This document shows positions 1,568 through 23,268 of a stretch of DNA of 23,268 nucleotides, piece by piece; positions within the stretch are counted from its first letter, which is position 1; every line of letters begins with the position of its first letter. Source of the stretch: a virus; IMG/VR virus record IMGVR_UViG_3300029268_000137, positions 1 through 23,268 of that record. One strand, given 5' to 3'. The notes below the pieces were generated by a model. It was not told the origin of the DNA and did no database searches. It was given only the letters and a program-made list of their open reading frames with translations. The position numbers and the translations under genes are program-made.

Positions 1568-2623
1568 TTAACTTGATTTTATTTCCCATCCATTTGTATT
1601 GTTTATAATAAAATTCTTTTTTCTGTTGGTTGGTTCTATTTTACCTTTATCTAACCATTTTCTTATTATATTAACATTCAAATTATGTTCTTTACAAAAA
1701 GTTGGCAATTGTCCCTTCACTGTAAATTTTTCATTCTGTGGTGAAATAAGATAGAATGTTTTTGCATTAATATTATTTTCACCACAATTTCTTTGTTTTA
1801 AAATCATTCCTATTTTTTCACGTGTTTCAATTGATGCTTTTCCTTTTCTTTTTTTCGCAGATTCACTCATTTTTAATTTAACATATGTTGGAAAAAAATT
1901 TGGATCTATTGTTTTGTGGTATTTCAATGACCTTATTTCCCAACCAATTAAATTGATTCTGTTTTGAGAACTTTTTCTTAATGATTCTTTTATAATACCT
2001 TTGTTTATATACCATCGAAGTGTTGTAAATGGTAAATTATTTTCTTTACAAAAATTTTGTAAAACACCATATACTTCATTAATTTTACCAAACTGTGATA
2101 TAACAATATATGTTTTTTTTGATTTATTTATTAATTTTCTTTTTTGATGTTCTACTTTATATTTATGTTCTGGTGAATAATCTTCTTTTTTTAAACCTTT
2201 ATTCCATGTTGAAATTCCTGATCTTTGTCCCTTTTTATGTTTTGAAATTTTCTTTTTGGATTCTTCGGTATGACTTCTTCTAAACATACCATTTTTTTCT
2301 CCCAATTTAGAATATTTTAATCTAATTTCTTCTTTATTCGGATTATTAGTAAATAAATCACCACCATTACCACCTTTTCCTATATTATAACCAATTGTTA
2401 AATCAGTTGAATTTAAATATTGAATCCAATATTTTTCTTTTTCATTCAATTCTTCAATAGAAAATGCCGTATCAATTATTTCTTTTTTGAAATTTTCAAT
2501 TCCATATTTTTTAATAGAATGTTTAATTAATATACCGGAACCGAAATATTCAGGATAATCTTTTTTTATCTTACCAATATAAATTTTTTTGTTTATAAGA
2601 TTTGTTACTTTGTATATTTCCAT
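1568..2623 (-). CDS. GIY-YIG homing endonuclease with NUMOD modules
   Basis: A 351-residue free-standing homing endonuclease. The N-terminal GIY-YIG nuclease core is IYKVTNLINKKIYIGK (residues 3-18), SGILIKHSIKKYGIENF (29-45) and the Glu-bearing helix ELNEKEKYWI (58-67). A NUMOD3-like DNA-binding module follows (NGMFRRSHTEESKKKISKHK, 111-130). Then come two homologous helix-turn-helix-type modules of about 62 residues (171-232 and 289-350), each with the pattern F-CKE-NL---------W---G-I and ending NxxGWEI. Between them is a second NUMOD3-like stretch (SESAKKRKGKASIETREKIG, 253-272). The product is expected to nick or cut a specific site in related phages lacking the gene and to spread by recombination. 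It lies between the radical SAM gene and the 1530 gene with its own hairpin/TATA-like leader. Confidence 0.9.
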   Translation of the reverse strand: MEIYKVTNLINKKIYIGKIKKDYPEYFGSGILIKHSIKKYGIENFKKEIIDTAFSIEELNEKEKYWIQYLNSTDLTIGYNIGKGGNGGDLFTNNPNKEEIRLKYSKLGEKNGMFRRSHTEESKKKISKHKKGQRSGISTWNKGLKKEDYSPEHKYKVEHQKRKLINKSKKTYIVISQFGKINEVYGVLQNFCKENNLPFTTLRWYINKGIIKESLRKSSQNRINLIGWEIRSLKYHKTIDPNFFPTYVKLKMSESAKKRKGKASIETREKIGMILKQRNCGENNINAKTFYLISPQNEKFTVKGQLPTFCKEHNLNVNIIRKWLDKGKIEPTNRKKNFIINNTNGWEIKSS

Positions 2624-2689: not shown

Positions 2690-3676
2690 TTAATGAAGTT
2701 CTCTAAATTTGTTGGAATAAGAAATACAAGCATCAAGGCAGTTTTTTTTACAAATTGGATCTTCGTAAGTATTATGATTATCAAACCATTTCGATCTTTC
2801 CTTTCGCATATTTTCAGAAACCTCACCAATTGGTTCACCACCCTCACGCATATAAATGACACATGGAAAATGTAGTGAACCGGCTATGACACTATCATCC
2901 AGAACTAACGCACACCTATTATAATCGGTTTCTACCATTCCCCTTACATTAATACCGTTTTTAAAATGATTTACTCTGTATTTAAGGATAGGGTATTTAT
3001 TCATCAAATTTTCAGGAACCATACCAAGTGCTTCAATAGGCTGATCCCATTGTGAAGAGGAGATTATTCTTATATCAGATACACCCAATGAATCAGCTAA
3101 TTTAATGGTATCAATAGTTTTCTGAACGTTTTCTGGTGTCAAAACAACACCAACGGTAACATAAGTGAGTTTCGAAATATATCTGATGTTTTCAACAACC
3201 TTTTCAAATGATCCGACAACACCACCCGACATTTTATCACCATCATCAGCACAACAAGCATCTAATGATATTGAAAAATCATTAACACCGGATTCAACCA
3301 ATTTGAAATAAAGTTCAGGTTTATTTGAACCATTAGTAGAAAGGGCGATTCTTTTAATACCCTTTGATTTTGAGTATTTAACGATTTCAATAATATTTGG
3401 ATGTAACGTAGGTTCACCTCCGGAAAATCTAATATTTTCCAATGGAAAAGGAACACACCATAAATCAATGTTCCTTTTGATTTCTTCCAGAGAAAGCATT
3501 TTCAGTTTACGGTCACCATAGATCCAATCTTTCAGACCACGACAATAGGGACATTTAAAATTGCAATATTCTGTTATAATCATTTCGCATCTTTTCATTT
3601 GTGAAATTGCAGAAGCTGATCCGGCACGATCATCGGAAAGTGAATAGAAACCAATATTTTTTAAATCTTCTGACAT
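2690..3676 (-). CDS. Radical SAM enzyme with C-terminal cysteine cluster (SPASM/Twitch-like)
   Basis: A 328-residue protein. The CxxxCxxC motif that binds the catalytic [4Fe-4S] cluster is at residues 38-45 (CNFKCPYC). The SAM-binding motif FSGGEPTLHP is at 84-93, followed by the typical STNGSN and SISLDA strands of the MoaA/PqqE-like fold. The last third has further cysteines (one in NRCALVLDD, one in HFPCVIY, then C309, C313, C317), which could hold an auxiliary Fe-S cluster as in SPASM or Twitch enzymes. Such enzymes modify peptides, nucleosides or cofactors by radical chemistry; the substrate here is not known. The gene is preceded at 12 nt by a 38-codon frame with a CxxC (3689-3805), so the two are probably co-transcribed. 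The 16-bp stem downstream ends the unit. Confidence 0.85.
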   Translation of the reverse strand: MSEDLKNIGFYSLSDDRAGSASAISQMKRCEMIITEYCNFKCPYCRGLKDWIYGDRKLKMLSLEEIKRNIDLWCVPFPLENIRFSGGEPTLHPNIIEIVKYSKSKGIKRIALSTNGSNKPELYFKLVESGVNDFSISLDACCADDGDKMSGGVVGSFEKVVENIRYISKLTYVTVGVVLTPENVQKTIDTIKLADSLGVSDIRIISSSQWDQPIEALGMVPENLMNKYPILKYRVNHFKNGINVRGMVETDYNRCALVLDDSVIAGSLHFPCVIYMREGGEPIGEVSENMRKERSKWFDNHNTYEDPICKKNCLDACISYSNKFRELH

Positions 3677-11539: not shown

Positions 11540-14500
11540 TTATATAAATTCTATTGTTCTCCAAAGATTAGAAGTTTGAATTGGGGTACATAAGTATATT
11601 TTGTTGTTACTTGAGGTATATAACATTACTAAATATCCTATATCATATGTACTCGCATTCCCCAATGCATTTTGTAAATTAACTTGATTGAGTGTAGTCC
11701 AAGAAGAAACTGTTATTATTCTTAATTTAATAGCACCAGATGTTTCAACTAATGTTACAGCGGTATCTCCCAATCTAATTTTATTTGATGCATTAACAAC
11801 AGCATTGGCACCAATTGCAGTGGCGTTGGATAAACCATCATTGCTCACATTTGCTGAACTGCCGATCGCTACATTATTATTACCATTTGTATTAACTGAA
11901 AGTGTCGAATTACCGATTGCTACATTATTATCACCTTGGATATTAAATGATAGTGCCAAATTACCGATTGCTACATTATTACTTCCAGTAGTATTATTAT
12001 AAAGTGATTGATAACCAAATGCGGAATTTCCACCCCCATCAGTATTTTGATGAAGAGATTGATAACCCAAAGCTGAATTATTATCAGCTGTTGAAGAATA
12101 AAGTGATTCAAAACCAATTGCGGTATTTCCAAAAGAATCTCTACTCAAAAAAAGTGAACCAAAACCAACAGATGTATTTTTAATACCTGTTGTAAGATTT
12201 AACATGGAATTTGCACCAATCGAAGTATTATAAGCATCTGATAAACTATTATAATTGAAAAGTGATCGATAACCAATTGCAGTATTATAACCAGATTGTG
12301 ACGATTTATTTAATGATTGTGATCCAATTGCAGTATTACTTTGACCAACTGTATTGGTTACAAGTGATTGATAACCAATAGCAACATTGTGTGAACCCGA
12401 AGAATTATTTTCAAGTGATGATGATCCAATAGCAGTATTATAACCATTAAGTGTTTCAACAAGAGATCGATATCCAATAGCTGTATTATCACTTGAAGTT
12501 AAATTAGTATAAAGTGAATAATTACCAATTGCTGTATTTTGATAACCGTTTGTATTTGAAAAAAGAGATTGATGACCAACAGCTATATTATGATAACCAT
12601 TTTGATTCAATCTAAGTGATTCATATCCTAACGAAGTGTTGTATGTACCATTATTAGAATAAAGAGAATATGATCCTATTGATGTATTATATGATCCAGT
12701 AGAATTAGTATAAAGTGATTGAATACCAAAGGCTGAATTTCCAGTTCCAGTAGAATTAGTATAAAGTGATTGAAAACCAAAGGCAGAATTTCCACCTCCC
12801 GTAGAATTATTAAAAAGTGACATAGAACCAAAAGCGGAATTTCCAGCACCAGTGGAATTAAAATAAAGAGATTTAAAACCAAATGCTGTAGAATTATCAG
12901 CCGTATTTAAATAAAGTGCTTGATAACCAAAAGCTGAGATTTGACTTGTTGTTAAATTGCTATAAATAGTTCCAGAACCAAATGCAGTATTATATTGTCC
13001 ACTAGTATTAGAATAAAGAGATTGATAACCGAATGCTGAATTGTAATTACTAATATTATTATATAAAGATTCAGAACCTATTGCCGTATTACCATGTGCC
13101 GTGTTTAAATAAAGAGATTGAAACCCTATAGCTGTATTATGTTCACCATTATAATTCGTATAAAGAGATTGATAACCAATAGCAGTATTTTTATTACCAG
13201 AAACATTTAAACAAAGAGATTTATAGCCAACGGCAATATTTTCATAACCAATTGTATTATTTGAAAGTGATCGTGAACCAATTGCCGTATTATAACTACT
13301 AGAAGTACTGTTATAAAGTGCATAACTGCCGACTGAAGTATTTTCGTCACCTGTTTGATTTGAATAAAGAGATTGTTCACCAATTGCAGTATTATAATCA
13401 CCTGACGTATTAGTGTATAAAGAGTTAGAACCAATTGCTGTATTATAACTACCATCTGTATTATTAAGCATAGACTGATAACCAATTGAAGAATTTTCAA
13501 CTCCACTAATATTTTTATTAAGAGATCTATATCCTAAAGTAGAATTAAAATTACCTGTGGAATTAGTAAAAAGTGATTCATGACCAACTACTGAATTATA
13601 ACCACCAGACGTATTTGTATATAAAGACTTAAAACCAATTGCTGTATTCCAACTACCATTCGTATTAGAAATCATAGATTGATAACCCATTGATGTGTTT
13701 TCAGTTCCAGTGGTATTATTATTAAGTGATTTCGTTCCAAAAGCAGAATTAAAACTAGCTGTAGTATTATAGAAAAGTGATTGATATCCAAAAGCTGTGT
13801 TTTCAGAACCACTAATATTTTTATCAAGAGATTGAAATCCAAATGCTGAATTATATTCACCAATAGTATTAAAATAAAGTGACGTATAACCAAATGCAGA
13901 ATTTCCACTACCTGTAGTATTTGAATTAAGAGATTGAAAACCAAATGCTGAATTATAATTACCAGTAATATTATTATAAAGTGAATTTGAACCAACCGCT
14001 GAATTTTTTTGACCACTGGTATTATGATATAAAGAAAGATAACCAATTGCAGTATTGGACTGACCAGCATCATTATAAGTTAAAGAATTAACCCCCAAAG
14101 CTGTATTATATGATCCTTCATAATCCGAACCTGTTACATATTCACCTCCACCACCAATCCATATATTATTACCATACCCACCATTTGCCAGACTAGAAAA
14201 TAAAATTTCAGTTCCATCTGTATTTATTTTCATTTTTCCATTAATATTAAGTATAGAATTTGGTTTTTCCCAATTCAATTCAGATACCGCATTATATCCA
14301 TATCCTGAAATATTAGTACTATCTCTCCATATTAAATTATAATCATTACCAAGTATAGGTAAAAAACCAGATGTACCACCAGAACCGGAAGTTCCAGATG
14401 TAGCAGATGTTCCACTAGATCCACTAGTTCCTGATGTTCCCGAACTTCCACTAGTTCCTGATGTTCCGGATGTTCCAGAACTACCACTTGTTGCAGAAGA

Positions 14501-14893
14501 TCCTGACGTACCACTAGTTCCTGATGTTCCCGAACTACCACTGGTTCCACTGGTTCCACTGGTTCCAGAACTTCCCGTCCAATCTGATCTTCCACTAGAA
14601 CCACTAGAACCACTCGTTCCACTAGAACCATGATTTCCCCTAATACCGGACGTTCCACTTGTTCCAAAACTAGAAGTACCACTTGAACCACTTTTTCCAC
14701 TAGTCCCACTAGTTCCATTTATAACACTAGTAACACCACTTTGAATATATGAAATGTTACCATATTCATCCATTTGTGCCAACGAACCAGTTAAATTTGT
14801 ATTTCCAGATGTATCATAACCCAATAAAACCCACCCCTCTCTTGGTCTGTCTATTTCATTAAAATCTTGCACTTTAAGTTTAAGGATACTCAT
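11540..14893 (-). CDS. Repeat tail fibre with TSG-triplet stalk and 45 head repeats
   Basis: 1117 residues. An N-terminal cap (1-59, possible attachment domain with GWVLLGYDTSG at 20-30) is followed by a collagen-like but proline-free stalk of TSG/SSG triplets (about 60-176). A short linker (177-262) leads to about 45 tandem 17-residue units of consensus NTAIGYQSLYxNTTGxY (263-1022), and then a C-terminal domain starting with ATAIGANAVVNASNKIRLGD. The S-x-A-x-G rhythm and the IRLGDT cap are those of left-handed parallel beta-roll heads of YadA-type trimeric adhesins. The protein is expected to be a trimeric fibre displayed on the tail. TTAATATATA (14923-14914) and an A-rich leader precede it. 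It is divergent from the plus-strand island. Confidence 0.85.
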   Translation of the reverse strand: MSILKLKVQDFNEIDRPREGWVLLGYDTSGNTNLTGSLAQMDEYGNISYIQSGVTSVINGTSGTSGKSGSSGTSSFGTSGTSGIRGNHGSSGTSGSSGSSGRSDWTGSSGTSGTSGTSGSSGTSGTSGTSGSSATSGSSGTSGTSGTSGSSGTSGTSGSSGTSATSGTSGSGGTSGFLPILGNDYNLIWRDSTNISGYGYNAVSELNWEKPNSILNINGKMKINTDGTEILFSSLANGGYGNNIWIGGGGEYVTGSDYEGSYNTALGVNSLTYNDAGQSNTAIGYLSLYHNTSGQKNSAVGSNSLYNNITGNYNSAFGFQSLNSNTTGSGNSAFGYTSLYFNTIGEYNSAFGFQSLDKNISGSENTAFGYQSLFYNTTASFNSAFGTKSLNNNTTGTENTSMGYQSMISNTNGSWNTAIGFKSLYTNTSGGYNSVVGHESLFTNSTGNFNSTLGYRSLNKNISGVENSSIGYQSMLNNTDGSYNTAIGSNSLYTNTSGDYNTAIGEQSLYSNQTGDENTSVGSYALYNSTSSSYNTAIGSRSLSNNTIGYENIAVGYKSLCLNVSGNKNTAIGYQSLYTNYNGEHNTAIGFQSLYLNTAHGNTAIGSESLYNNISNYNSAFGYQSLYSNTSGQYNTAFGSGTIYSNLTTSQISAFGYQALYLNTADNSTAFGFKSLYFNSTGAGNSAFGSMSLFNNSTGGGNSAFGFQSLYTNSTGTGNSAFGIQSLYTNSTGSYNTSIGSYSLYSNNGTYNTSLGYESLRLNQNGYHNIAVGHQSLFSNTNGYQNTAIGNYSLYTNLTSSDNTAIGYRSLVETLNGYNTAIGSSSLENNSSGSHNVAIGYQSLVTNTVGQSNTAIGSQSLNKSSQSGYNTAIGYRSLFNYNSLSDAYNTSIGANSMLNLTTGIKNTSVGFGSLFLSRDSFGNTAIGFESLYSSTADNNSALGYQSLHQNTDGGGNSAFGYQSLYNNTTGSNNVAIGNLALSFNIQGDNNVAIGNSTLSVNTNGNNNVAIGSSANVSNDGLSNATAIGANAVVNASNKIRLGDTAVTLVETSGAIKLRIITVSSWTTLNQVNLQNALGNASTYDIGYLVMLYTSSNNKIYLCTPIQTSNLWRTIEFI
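11828..14107 (-). repeat. About 45 tandem 51-bp units encoding 17-residue head repeats
   Basis: Reading the protein I count about 45 consecutive units with N-[ST]-[AS]-[IFV]-G-x-x-S-L-x-x-N-x-[ST]-G at 17-residue spacing; a few have 16 residues and one has 19. At least one higher-order duplication is visible. Units 8-11 and 12-15 correspond one to one (for example SLNNNTTGTE/SLNKNISGVE, then GYQSMISNTNGS/GYQSMLNNTDGS, then SLYTNTSGGY/SLYTNTSGDY), implying a 204-bp block was copied. Such arrays change length by recombination. Confidence 0.85.
14366..14716 (-). repeat. TSG/SSG triplet-repeat stalk region
   Basis: About 117 codons encode Gly at every third position with Thr/Ser in the other two, interrupted by short irregularities such as GIRGNHG and GRSDWTGSS. 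At the DNA level the run is built of ACTAGTGG-, ACCAGTGG- and ACATCAGG-type 9-mers and is richer in G and C than the rest of the gene. Similar GGTACTAGTGGT and GGTCCTAGTGGA codons appear in the portal-like gene at 15791-15858. Confidence 0.85.
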
Positions 14894-18247: not shown

Positions 18248-21200
18248 TTACCAATTCCAAGAAAAATCCCCTTGACTTTCCGAATCAGTTTTATAAATTC
18301 CTAAATATGGTGAATATGTACGGAACGATACACTATTAGAACCAAAACTAAGTAATAATAAATATCCGGGATAATTTGAAAAATATTGCCAATTACCCAT
18401 AATTTGATAAACGTGACTATTATCTGAATGTGTAGAATCTCGAAATCCGGATCCAACTGTTACAGTACCATCGTGACCACAAATTACAAATTTCACATTA
18501 TTATTTGGATACACAAGATTAGTCCATAAATCTGTTCCATCGTTTACATCTGGTGGTCCAGACCCCAATCCATATCCATTACTTGGTGCATGATTATCGG
18601 AATGTGCTAATAATTCACCATCGTATCTTAGATAAGAATGTACAATTATAATAGAATTTATTGTTGAATATGTTGATAAAATATTATTTGCCCAAGTAAC
18701 AATATTACTTCTAGGTCCAAATTCTAATGATAATATAAGTAAATCATGTCCATTGATATTAACAATATGATAAGTATTATCACTATTTGTATCATATGAA
18801 CCACCGTATGTTGACATTGATTCAAATGTTGATAATGGAAAATATGAATTGAACATTGCACTATCTCTTGTTAATTCATTATAATCATGATTACCGGGAA
18901 GTACAGAATATGATATTCCAGAATTTATAAATCTTGTCATACCACTTTGCACAAATGACCATTGAGACGTAGATTCAGTCCAATCTTGAACCAAATCACC
19001 AATATGACCAACAAATTTTAAATTTTTAGAAATTTTATTATTTATTAACCAATCTATTTGAGATGTCATTACTTCTTCTTTATACTTTACATATGATTGA
19101 GTATCTGGTAAAAATGCTATAGTGTATGTGTTCCATTTTGCGTAAAGTGAAACATTTGAACCAACTATAAAAGTTGTACCTGTATAATAATCTGTACCTG
19201 TACCATCTGCTAATGTGTTCCAACAAGCAAATACATCACTATCACGAAGAAGATTATTTGTTGGAATTTGAATTGATGTCCCTTGGTTATATGTACCACC
19301 ATTAGGTACAGAACCACTTGTATATCCATTACCATTATATGTTAAGGTGTATGTTGGTATTGTAGTAAATCTTCTTATTGCCCTTGCTCTATATGTATTT
19401 GATTTTGATGATGAACTTTTCAATCCAGTGCCAAATGCTTGTCTATAAGCATTTGTTGAACTAACTTCAGATGAACTCCAATAACTTACATTTGACAAAT
19501 TACCAACTCCAAATAGATAAAGATTTTGATACATTAAATTTAATTCGTCCTGTGATGGTAAGAACCAATCATCAAAAGTATTTAGAATTAAATTATTACA
19601 TAATGATGCTGCTCCAGATGTAAATCCAGATTGAGATATTATAGCATAAGTATTACCTGATCCAGTACCTATTGATGTACTGGTTGTTTCTATGGCTGTA
19701 GTTATATTACTCCATCTAATTACTGTTTCATCCTCTACACTAGACGCTTCTATATATCTCCAACCATCATTTAAATAATTCGGATTTATATAAAATATCG
19801 TTCCACCTGCTGGTCCTATATCCCTAACACTATATGTTAAATTACCAAGTTTTCTTTGTTGTCCTCTAATATCAACAGGTAATGTAATATTTGTATTTAA
19901 TCCGGCATTAATTAAAGGTGACGTTCCTTTTAATCTATAATCACCTAAAGTATTAGGAGTATTTTCACTTGTTGGTACTATTGGGTCAACAAATATTGGA
20001 TCAGATGTTGTACAATTTGTTACTGTAAAAGTTGCACCTAAATAAATATAATTGTCTGTTGATCCTGTTGTATATTGACAATAATCTAAATTCATTGTAC
20101 ATCCAGAAGAATCTAAATATAAATTATTTCCATTTGTTGCTCCTATATTTCCACTTAAAATTGAATTTTTCAAATATAATTGAGAATTAGATATGATACC
20201 TATAGCACCACCTCTTTCAGCATAATTTCCACTTATAGTACAATTTATAACTTGTGATAGTGTTGTACTTGCTGGTACAGAGTTATAATACATACCACCA
20301 CCATAATTAACCGCTTTATTACCAGTAATTAAACAACTCGATATAATAGGTCTTCCGTATCTGTTATATATACCACCAGATTGTTGTAAAGCATAATTTC
20401 CTATTATTTTAGTATTATTTATTTTAGTATTGTGATTATCGTTAAATATACCACCACCATAAGTTGCAGTGTTTCCACTAACTATACAATTAGTTATATT
20501 AATAGTTGATGCTTCTCTATATGAATCATTACCAGTTCTAACTAATATTGCACCACCATATTCAGCGGTATTCCCACTAAAAAAACAATTTACAATATTT
20601 AAAGTTCCGGGTTCACTTATAGTGTATATCGCACCACCTTTTCCACCATCAGTTACACCAATTCCGTTAGAATTATTATTATAAAAATTACAATTGGAGA
20701 TATTATTTACATTTGTTGCATATGATGTTCCGATGTGTATAGCACCACCACCATATGTACCAGTTCCTGATGTTTTACTATTATTATAAAAATTACATTT
20801 CATAATATTTGTATTGTTACTTATTGAAGTAATTGCACCACCCTTGTATAAAGTAGTATTATTATCAAATGTACAATTATAAATTGTTGGACTACAATAT
20901 CTACTAATATAAATTGCACCTCCACTATCAATAGATAAATTATTAGTAAATCTACAATTTCTTATCAAACATGTGTTTGTTAAAGTACTACTTGTTGTGT
21001 AATTTAAAATGCCACCACCATAATTGTGTGGTGTTGAACCTGATGCTGTTCCACCTGAAATTGTGAAACCATCTAATATGTCCGTTGATGTTAATACTAA
21101 ATCTTTATTATTGAAAACGTGATAACAATTTGTACCATTTAATATAACTATATTTGTTGCATAATCTCTTTGTGATAAGTCTGTCTCTGTTCCATTAAAA

Positions 21201-21424
21201 CCACCATAAATTGGAACTCCTCTTTTCATTGTAAATGATTTGAATAGTGATCCAGAACCACCAACTTCAGTTGATGGATAATATGTTCCTGCAGCAACCC
21301 AAACCTGATCAGAAGTTCCAGAAGATGCCATTGTTATACCAGATTGAAGAGATGTGTAAGCATTAGTCCAACTTGAACCATTATTACTTCCTGTTGCATC
21401 ATATTTTACATAAATTGTTGCCAT
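18248..21424 (-). CDS. Mosaic tail fibre: beta-helix, DUF1566, InlB repeat, metallophosphoesterase
   Basis: 1058 residues. Residues 1 to about 530 form a right-handed beta-helix with repeated GGAIY and NCxFxxN steps (Chlamydia Pmp-like), opened by IYVKYDATGSNNGSSWTNAY. Next is a DUF1566/Lcl-type C-type-lectin-like domain (GPAGGTIFYI, DDWFLPSQDELNLMYQNLYL, SYWSSSE, RARAIRRF). A Listeria-Bacteroides (InlB B) repeat follows (YTLTYNGNGYTSGSVP ... VSLYAKWNTY). From about 769 there is a calcineurin-like phosphoesterase: DTQ (D774), GDLV (D810), GNHD (N845, H846, D847), IIVHS (H929), CGHDG (H984). The metal ligands are present except that the first motif has Gln for His and the last GHxH lacks its second His. 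No secretion signal; expected on the virion. It follows the next fibre gene by 15 nt, with AAAGGA upstream of the ATG. Confidence 0.8.
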   Translation of the reverse strand: MATIYVKYDATGSNNGSSWTNAYTSLQSGITMASSGTSDQVWVAAGTYYPSTEVGGSGSLFKSFTMKRGVPIYGGFNGTETDLSQRDYATNIVILNGTNCYHVFNNKDLVLTSTDILDGFTISGGTASGSTPHNYGGGILNYTTSSTLTNTCLIRNCRFTNNLSIDSGGAIYISRYCSPTIYNCTFDNNTTLYKGGAITSISNNTNIMKCNFYNNSKTSGTGTYGGGAIHIGTSYATNVNNISNCNFYNNNSNGIGVTDGGKGGAIYTISEPGTLNIVNCFFSGNTAEYGGAILVRTGNDSYREASTINITNCIVSGNTATYGGGIFNDNHNTKINNTKIIGNYALQQSGGIYNRYGRPIISSCLITGNKAVNYGGGMYYNSVPASTTLSQVINCTISGNYAERGGAIGIISNSQLYLKNSILSGNIGATNGNNLYLDSSGCTMNLDYCQYTTGSTDNYIYLGATFTVTNCTTSDPIFVDPIVPTSENTPNTLGDYRLKGTSPLINAGLNTNITLPVDIRGQQRKLGNLTYSVRDIGPAGGTIFYINPNYLNDGWRYIEASSVEDETVIRWSNITTAIETTSTSIGTGSGNTYAIISQSGFTSGAASLCNNLILNTFDDWFLPSQDELNLMYQNLYLFGVGNLSNVSYWSSSEVSSTNAYRQAFGTGLKSSSSKSNTYRARAIRRFTTIPTYTLTYNGNGYTSGSVPNGGTYNQGTSIQIPTNNLLRDSDVFACWNTLADGTGTDYYTGTTFIVGSNVSLYAKWNTYTIAFLPDTQSYVKYKEEVMTSQIDWLINNKISKNLKFVGHIGDLVQDWTESTSQWSFVQSGMTRFINSGISYSVLPGNHDYNELTRDSAMFNSYFPLSTFESMSTYGGSYDTNSDNTYHIVNINGHDLLILSLEFGPRSNIVTWANNILSTYSTINSIIIVHSYLRYDGELLAHSDNHAPSNGYGLGSGPPDVNDGTDLWTNLVYPNNNVKFVICGHDGTVTVGSGFRDSTHSDNSHVYQIMGNWQYFSNYPGYLLLLSFGSNSVSFRTYSPYLGIYKTDSESQGDFSWNW

Positions 21425-21439
21425 ATTATAGTCCTTTTT

Positions 21440-23268
21440 TTATTCATTTGGATCAATATTAACATTATATTCATACGCACCAATATCAACTGTTCCGTTC
21501 TCAATAATTTCTAAAACATTTATGTACATGTTTTGTGTCGATGTTGGTGTTAAACTTAATCCAATTTTACCTTCAATAGAGGGTGTTATATTATCAATAT
21601 TAACGGTATTAAACATATTATTTATAACTTGAAGTGATACTGTTGTTGAATTTATTGTATAATTTGATATATTACTTGATGTTGATGAACTACCAAATAT
21701 AACAATATTATAAGTTTTTCCAGTATTTAAACCACATATATCAATAATAGGTCTTAATGTAGATGCTGCATAAACCATACCTGACATTCTCGAATCTGGA
21801 TAAATACCACTATCATCACTTGTCTGTGCTCCACCTGAACTTTTATTAGTAAATCCAGAAATGATTGTAAAATAAACTGAACCAGTCACACCATTTAAAC
21901 TACTTTCTGATAAATTATAAGATGTTGTTCCACTTAAATATAAATTTGTTCTATTCCAAGTTATACCGGAAACAGTTTCGGATGAATTTGAAGAACTACC
22001 AAAATCTATTAAATATTTATATGGTAAAACAACTGGAATTACAATAGCATCAAGTCTTGCTTGATATATAGTTTTCGTTTCAGGTATATATATCTGATTT
22101 ACAAAATATTGAGCTTTATCTATTGATGCTAATAATCCTAATGTCGAATCATTTTCTGCTAAGGATACATATTTTTCTGCCATATTGAGAACTGATTGAG
22201 ACCATTCTAAATTAATAAGAGATGAAGTTGTTCCTGTCCCATTATATGAATAATTTGTAAATCCTCTTATTTGAATATTTATTATATTTGCTGAAGAATC
22301 TGATGCCAATAAAGATAATGAATTAGTTCTAAAATAATCTGGTGTTATTTTATTTTCTAGATTTACTATTACTTGATTTCCATTGGTTGTATATGTTACT
22401 GTTGTATTATCTCTTATGTAAAGATATTCATATATATCTTGATATGGTGCCATCCATACTGAATCATTACCATTTTTACCATAATTATTTTCAACATAAT
22501 TCATATAGTAATTGAATGTTTCTGGATCTAAATTACCATTAGATGCAATTATTGAATGTGAAAAATCATGCCACCAGTAATTAGTAATCCCACTACTTTT
22601 ATTAGCGATAGATATGATATTACTTGTTATTCCAGTGTTTGGTACATTACCATCTATCCAATATATAAATTTTTTATACATGCAATATTGATCAAAATTT
22701 ATATCACTAACATCAACTCCTGTAGAAGAAACTATTTTTGTTCCACCGGATAATTCAAAAGTTGTAATTTGTGCTGTTAAAGATAATTCTCCACTATCTA
22801 AAGCTGGAATATTATAACCTTGATCACCATTAGGCACAACCATATGAATAGGAATATATCCAGTTTTTAATGTAATATATGCCGTATTACCAGTAACTTC
22901 ACCATAATATTCATTATATGTATTACCTGTTGCAATACCAGCTTTAAATCCATGATTAAAAACGTTCCATCCAAAATCACATAATTCGGTTATTTGTGAC
23001 CAAGTTAAATATGATGGTATGTCTATATGAACATCATTACCATCTAAATTAAGAGAATAGATAGATAATCCAGCTTTAAAATTGACATCATGACCACAAC
23101 CATCTGTATATGTTAGACCTGATGAATATGTACCGCCTGTGCTTTGAAGAAGTGGAAATGCTACTGTATATTGTGGTCTTAATCCATCATCCATAGTGAA
23201 GCTATAAGCAAAATCTTTATCATATTTAAGATTTGCTTTAGATACTGAAAAATTTGTAGGAGGTGAAT
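21440..23268 (-). CDS. Fibre with N-terminal polysaccharide-deacetylase-like domain (5' end outside window)
   Basis: At least 608 residues. An ATG at 23194 exists, but the frame stays open to the window edge and the upstream codons complete the NodB motif: DKDFAYSFTMDDGLRPQYTV. The gene therefore starts outside and 23194 is an internal Met. The rest of the N-terminal domain fits the NodB fold: AFPLLQ after the motif, a conserved TDGCGHDV, WSQITELCDFGWNVFNHGF (the 'E-G-WEIgNH' block) and VVPNGDQGYNIPAL. The middle has HDFSHS and a long soluble domain; the C-terminal part (after about 400) is beta-rich with SGITWNRTNLYLSG and ends GAYEYNVNIDPNE. Likely a tail fibre or spike modifying or binding N-acetylated host surface polysaccharide. 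Catalytic competence is uncertain because the second metal motif is NHG and not HSxxH. Confidence 0.7.
   Translation of the reverse strand, partial: SPPTNFSVSKANLKYDKDFAYSFTMDDGLRPQYTVAFPLLQSTGGTYSSGLTYTDGCGHDVNFKAGLSIYSLNLDGNDVHIDIPSYLTWSQITELCDFGWNVFNHGFKAGIATGNTYNEYYGEVTGNTAYITLKTGYIPIHMVVPNGDQGYNIPALDSGELSLTAQITTFELSGGTKIVSSTGVDVSDINFDQYCMYKKFIYWIDGNVPNTGITSNIISIANKSSGITNYWWHDFSHSIIASNGNLDPETFNYYMNYVENNYGKNGNDSVWMAPYQDIYEYLYIRDNTTVTYTTNGNQVIVNLENKITPDYFRTNSLSLLASDSSANIINIQIRGFTNYSYNGTGTTSSLINLEWSQSVLNMAEKYVSLAENDSTLGLLASIDKAQYFVNQIYIPETKTIYQARLDAIVIPVVLPYKYLIDFGSSSNSSETVSGITWNRTNLYLSGTTSYNLSESSLNGVTGSVYFTIISGFTNKSSGGAQTSDDSGIYPDSRMSGMVYAASTLRPIIDICGLNTGKTYNIVIFGSSSTSSNISNYTINSTTVSLQVINNMFNTVNIDNITPSIEGKIGLSLTPTSTQNMYINVLEIIENGTVDIGAYEYNVNIDPNE

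Follow-up and report, generated by a model that had tools for sequence, protein, structure and literature searches.

The window, the whole stretch of DNA analysed here, is a 23-kb virus record (23,268 nucleotides). Positions 18248-21424 of its minus strand comprise one open reading frame of 1058 amino acids that begins with ATG and has no internal stop, confirming the uninterrupted frame claimed in the first-pass annotation, which left the strand unstated. The ATG lies 15 nt past the stop of the upstream gene, and a purine-rich, ribosome-binding-like stretch, AAAAAAAGGAC, is found ahead of it. Base composition is even along the whole length of the frame (GC 0.28-0.34), with a low GC3 (0.05-0.12). 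The translated sequence displays four parts in one chain: a beta-helix, a DUF1566/Lcl-type lectin-like domain, an InlB-type repeat and, last, a calcineurin-like metallophosphoesterase (MPE) (Table 1). The same domains had been named at first reading; the Pmp-like beta-helix, DUF1566 and InlB repeat are recognised by profiles and the phosphoesterase by motifs.

Table 1. Features of the window and of the phage proteins compared with it
Feature	Position	Strand	Basis
Mosaic fibre gene, 1058 aa, uninterrupted frame	18248..21424	-	ORF analysis
N-terminal right-handed beta-helix, Pmp-like repeats, residues ~1-518	19871..21424	-	PF13229, PF02415, NF041518, model beta-strands, repeats
DUF1566/Lcl_C lectin-like domain, residues ~530-690	19355..19837	-	phrog_4245, PF07603, alignment to L007 and L002
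InlB B-repeat/List_Bact_rpt (Flg_new), residues 692-763	19136..19351	-	PF09479 6e-9; same position in L007
Calcineurin-like metallophosphoesterase domain, residues 764-1058 (295 residues)	18251..19135	-	Motifs, conservation, AlphaFold2, Foldseek, PF00149 in relatives
Upstream gene, open at window edge; N-terminal half polysaccharide-deacetylase-like	21440..23266	-	Polysacc_deac_3 4e-6, below cut-off
Collagen-like stalk and repeated head-type motif; tail or virion protein, same module	11540..14893	-	phrog_23837, 6002, 4636
Large protein, 1420 aa, anchoring the window to the 735-kb phage LR756501	7259..11521	-	52-56% identity over most of length
Phage G gp352, LTD+MPE	L092 19583-22183		
crAss002 gp19, LTD+MPE	L093 6273-9734		
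Bacteroides phage DAC16 gp85, LTD+MPE	L094 6156-9689		

Judged from sequence, the window is a relative of the 735-kb Bacteroidetes Mahaphage LR756501, and gene order is conserved between the two. Genomes larger than 634 kb belong to the Mahaphage clade, and Bacteroidetes hosts are predicted for them (PMC7162821). The mosaic fibre gene and the gene upstream of it form a two-gene cassette (18248-23266) that adjoins genes syntenic with LR756501 and is missing from the corresponding place in that phage; LR756501 has no MPE of the window type. The MPE fibre gene is located among tail or fibre genes. In the product of 11540-14893, many copies of an 'NTAIGYQSLYxN' head-type repeat come after the collagen-like stalk, and the N-terminal 55 residues alone resemble shorter genes at the same place in the 735-kb phage. 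At the other end of the window, a radical SAM gene (2690-3676) is 63% identical to its counterpart in the 735-kb phage; it is adjoined by a GIY-YIG homing-endonuclease-like gene, identified by eye (1568-2623, minus strand).

The upstream gene of the cassette, which probably encodes a second fibre, has a relative in a 636-kb phage, LR756504, where it lies beside a fibre-like gene. Its deacetylase-like domain keeps the DD of motif 1 and displays N-H-G-F-K-A against S-H-S-W-S-H in the LR756504 relative, with Ala where that relative has the second His of H-S-W-S-H. This comparison suggests that one metal His appears lost and that the domain may have decayed to a binding domain.

The N-terminal half of the mosaic fibre matches Beta_helix PF13229 in Pfam at residues 126-299 (7e-9) and carries Chlam_PMP repeats (PF02415, 6e-6) and a choice-of-anchor-Q-like stretch at residues 495-528 (NF041518). 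The full-length AlphaFold2 model has beta-strands at residues 110-465. No virion-anchoring N-terminal domain was recognised in this half, which matches beta-helix profiles only. Many phage fibres have no recognisable anchor domain, and the protein is a probable fibre by context, not by an N-terminal anchor. The full-length model (mean pLDDT 58) captures the MPE and part of the beta-helix; the DUF1566/InlB part, for which the alignment is shallow, is unmodelled, so that the packing of the domains cannot be read from it.

The lectin-like domain is matched by phrog_4245 over residues 532-688 (2e-33) and by PF07603 (DUF1566/Lcl_C) over residues 594-684 (8e-6, with 26.6 bits against a curated cut-off of 34.9). 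HbP1 (8q4e), a solved chain among the entries used for the Lcl structure paper, aligns to this region at 2e-5. In Legionella Lcl, DUF1566 forms a trimer that binds glycans (PMC11162425); in Bacteroides phages it is a variable domain linked to tropism (PMC8143477). The domain was also considered as a target of a diversity-generating retroelement and rejected: the three phage records, which are fragments, contain no RVT_1, and the fibre genes contain no repeat of the DUF1566 region. The end of the beta-helix meets DUF1566 at 'SVRDIGPAGG' (~19838-19880, minus strand), and the upstream gene ends in 'TVDIGAYEY', an ending of a type usual for such beta-helix proteins. The beta-helix and DUF1566 may have been fused at the short common DIG sequence.

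A search for a like domain order in other phages, suggested at first reading, finds it in two. One is L007, a phage contig from another metagenome, in which DUF1566, InlB and MPE share a single frame (55% identity over 535 residues) that begins just before DUF1566. The other is phage L002, in which DUF1566 and MPE are adjacent separate genes, with a collagen-like fibre before and after that has a common N-terminus, and then a SASA sugar esterase. A fourth phage, L076, has the same DUF1566 type within a collagen-bearing tail fibre. The window, L007 and L002 are the only three phage members known of the MPE clade, and all have tail-fibre neighbours around the MPE. DUF1566-(InlB)-MPE is a phage module common to the three, situated among tail-fibre genes.

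The single frame of L007 also bears on how the window was assembled. It rules out a join of two genes at the MPE, a concern of the first-pass annotation. A partial chimera, with the beta-helix joined in silico to a DUF1566-InlB-MPE gene, is highly improbable. No relatives of the beta-helix part were found in the viral contigs searched, and the beta-helix/DUF1566 junction (near window position 19850) is therefore without an independent witness; however, the 1058 codons form a single open frame of even GC3, the three downstream domains are joined in L007 too, and the start of the L007 frame just before DUF1566 is what is expected of a natural module boundary.

The phage MPEs group in a single clade (support 100/100), separated by a long branch from their cellular kin, of which L078 and L080 are the nearest. 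In view of this long branch, the MPE was not acquired recently, to judge from the genomes searched. Four tblastn hits labelled as phage (MT835827, MT837443, MT836095 and MT835944; L003-L006) were set aside as phage evidence because of their bacterial gene content. They are faecal 'Bacteriophage sp.' records with SusC/SusD loci, glutamate dehydrogenase and transporters, and are probably mislabelled bacterial contigs. L073 was rejected as a phage gene as well, since it resembles a bacterial gene situated next to a prophage.

In the phosphoesterase domain, the five motifs noticed initially are all found, and in order: DTQ at 774, GDLV at 809, GNHD at 844, IIVHS at 926 and CGHD at 982. The key residues are D774, Q776, Y778, D810, N845-H846-D847, H929, G983-H984 and Q1013. 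The window domain alone gives no credible match in Pfam, NCBIfam or PDB sequence searches, and PDB profile searches with A1 and A2 return weak or unrelated matches only, some on short MPE-like stretches. Alignment by hhalign to a canonical MPE family covers the GD-to-GNHD region only. PF00149 is matched by 42 of the 43 aligned MPE relatives, and the MPEs of L007 and L002, which are 54-60% identical to that of the window, pass with 27.6 and 29.8 bits (cut-off 21.5). As it is the close relatives that match, and not the window sequence itself, the window MPE is placed by profile in the PF00149 superfamily through them. As to fold, the structure check proposed earlier was favourable: AlphaFold2 predicts the domain well from a 43-sequence alignment (pLDDT 88.5, pTM 0.91), and the best Foldseek match of this model in the PDB is Lmo2642 (4e-11), followed by purple acid phosphatases, with probability 1.00. 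At the level of the predicted model, a calcineurin-like MPE fold at the C-terminus of the fibre is confirmed.

Invariant in the 43 sequences, which come from phages and three bacterial phyla, are D774, Q776, GD, GNHD, H929 and GH, and Gln 1013 also; in all, 18 alignment columns are invariant, most of them motif residues, and the conservation is far beyond chance. For Q776 the conservation is partly by construction in the first genome scan, which was seeded with the D[TP]Q motif, but D-x-Q is kept in all relatives found without a motif filter (tblastn hits, and profile hits in 396 Bacteroidota-phylum genomes). The profile hits have GD, GNHD, H929 and GH as well. The canonical set, D-x-H/GD/GNHD/H/GHxH, is departed from in motif I, which is D-x-Q in the window, and in motif V, which is GHDG. 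The second His of motif V is gone in the phage and Bacteroidota lineages: the actinobacterial branch has His at this position, Bacteroidota mostly have Cys, and the window (G986), L007 and Lunatimonas, among others, have Gly. As read from the alignment, the canonical di-metal ligand set is incomplete and the classical metal-1 site is affected (motif I His to Gln, motif V second His absent); as both departures are common in the clade, the window MPE keeps its place in the superfamily.

This incomplete metal-1 set is consistent with a fold used for binding only, as a glycan- or phosphate-binding tip that has lost catalysis. The adjacent deacetylase-like gene points in the same direction, as it appears to lack the second NodB-type His that its huge-phage counterpart has, and suggests that enzyme folds of the cassette can decay to binders. 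Loss of catalysis is nevertheless somewhat unlikely. For the most part the substitutions recur across the family, in secreted cellular kin encoded within nutrient-use loci; all three phage MPEs keep the catalytic His of GNHD and intact metal-2 ligands; and the motif-I His is missing in purple acid phosphatases too. Since the departures are mostly family-wide, we infer an altered metal-1 site rather than a dead enzyme. To our knowledge, no member of the MPE clade has a reported activity.

The MPE kin from Bacteroidota and Verrucomicrobiota are ~330-410 aa long with signal-peptide-like N-termini, and those from Actinomycetota are long LTD-bearing surface proteins. Many of the Bacteroidota copies are encoded in SusC/SusD loci that also contain EEP phosphatases, nucleotide-pyrophosphatase-type phosphodiesterases, a second MPE or sulfatases; GH92/GH20, sialidase and fucose genes are also found in Bacteroidota MPE loci (read by eye). 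L014, L017, L034, L039 and similar loci, which combine SusC/SusD and one or two MPEs with an EEP phosphatase, a nucleotide-pyrophosphatase-type phosphodiesterase or sulfatases, may be uncharacterised loci for the use of phospho- or sulfo-glycans (or phospholipids).

Because the cellular kin are secreted and often encoded in Bacteroidota glycan-use loci, a surface-glycan phosphate is the likeliest target. A phosphorylated substrate on the host envelope had been proposed from the sequence at the outset, and the occurrence of the kin beside other phosphatases in glycan-degradation loci favours it; the teichoic-like polymer listed among the candidates is unlikely, as Bacteroidetes, which are Gram-negative, are the predicted hosts of the nearest huge phages.

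On balance, the gene probably encodes an accessory fibre or spike on the tail of a Mahaphage-like huge phage, in which the C-terminal enzyme would cleave a phosphoester of a glycan at the host surface. Domains, fold and fibre-gene context support the mosaic phage fibre with a C-terminal MPE that was first put forward; its location in the virion, the tip position, the substrate and catalysis are predicted. The beta-helix and DUF1566 would bind a surface polysaccharide of the Bacteroidota host, with the InlB repeat as a spacer. The MPE, with a non-canonical metal site formed by D774, Q776, D810, N845, H929 and H984 and with H846 as general acid, would hydrolyse a phosphomonoester or phosphodiester on the bound glycan, and this may open the coat or expose a receptor.

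A protein that is not part of the virion, acting in or at the surface of the infected cell, e.g. in phosphate scavenging or nucleotide counter-defence, would fit the lack of a recognised virion anchor, and jumbo phages do encode calcineurin-like phosphodiesterases for counter-nucleotide roles (PMC7824862). Such a role is quite unlikely in view of the beta-helix, DUF1566 and InlB modules, the tail-fibre neighbours in all three phages, the presence of such a DUF1566 inside the collagen-bearing tail fibre of L076, and the extracellular types of the cellular kin.

Phosphate-cleaving domains on Bacteroidota phage tails have barely been studied. With a defined 295-residue domain, a confident model, two phage relatives and cellular kin with genomic context, enzymatic editing of host-glycan phosphate becomes testable. 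The MPE fibre is also a further detail of host recognition within the group to which the largest known phages belong.

Phage tail proteins with an MPE are not without precedent. Phosphatase domains in tail spikes are listed in a Crassvirales review (PMC10136315), and crAss002 gp19, DAC16 gp85 and Bacillus phage G gp352 are large LTD+MPE proteins (866-1177 aa) in or beside tail modules. As in the window protein, the calcineurin-like domain is in the C-terminal half and motif I reads D-x-Q; very large genes of tail or fibre-like type adjoin. Unlike the window protein, all three carry LTD instead of beta-helix/DUF1566/InlB, motif III is GNND, in which the usual catalytic His is absent, and GHxH is intact; phage G gp352 also has Mtd_N and purple-acid-phosphatase N-terminal domains. 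Sequence similarity to the window MPE is at or near noise. The window protein displays neither LTD nor the GNND/GHxH motifs of crAss-type tail-spike phosphatases, and its MPE may work like one of these, though it is not a member. The phage G MPE domain aligns weakly with actinobacterial LTD-MPE surface proteins. A tentative, rather doubtful extension is that an altered-metal-1 D-x-Q phosphoesterase clade entered the tail fibres of unrelated Bacteroidota phages on more than one occasion, with a link to DUF1566 in huge phages and to LTD in crAss-like ones, and would define enzymes that remove or cut phosphate on host capsule or LPS glycans.

The secreted Bacteroidota D-[TP]-Q phosphoesterases (L078, L011, L014) belong to the same MPE clade as the window domain, with 26-32% identity over the whole domain and the same motif set, and L078 has in common with it a Y-G-[IL]-G...N-D-G insert; they differ as standalone signal-peptide proteins of ~330-370 aa in cellular loci. 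The Legionella collagen-like adhesin Lcl resembles the window protein in its C-terminal DUF1566 domain, and L002 resembles Lcl in having a collagen-like gene directly ahead of the DUF1566 gene; Lcl, however, has no enzyme domain and is a bacterial adhesin for sulphated glycans (PMC11162425). The GDPD-type phosphodiesterases on the tails of Gram-positive phages (Ld17 baseplate; enterococcal tail lysins, PMC10194240) likewise provide a phosphodiester-cleaving domain, but differ in fold and in host envelope (teichoic acid). A tail-borne phosphoesterase is thus a known idea; what is new is the linkage to DUF1566-InlB, the particular MPE subfamily, and the fact that a relative of Mahaphage carries it.
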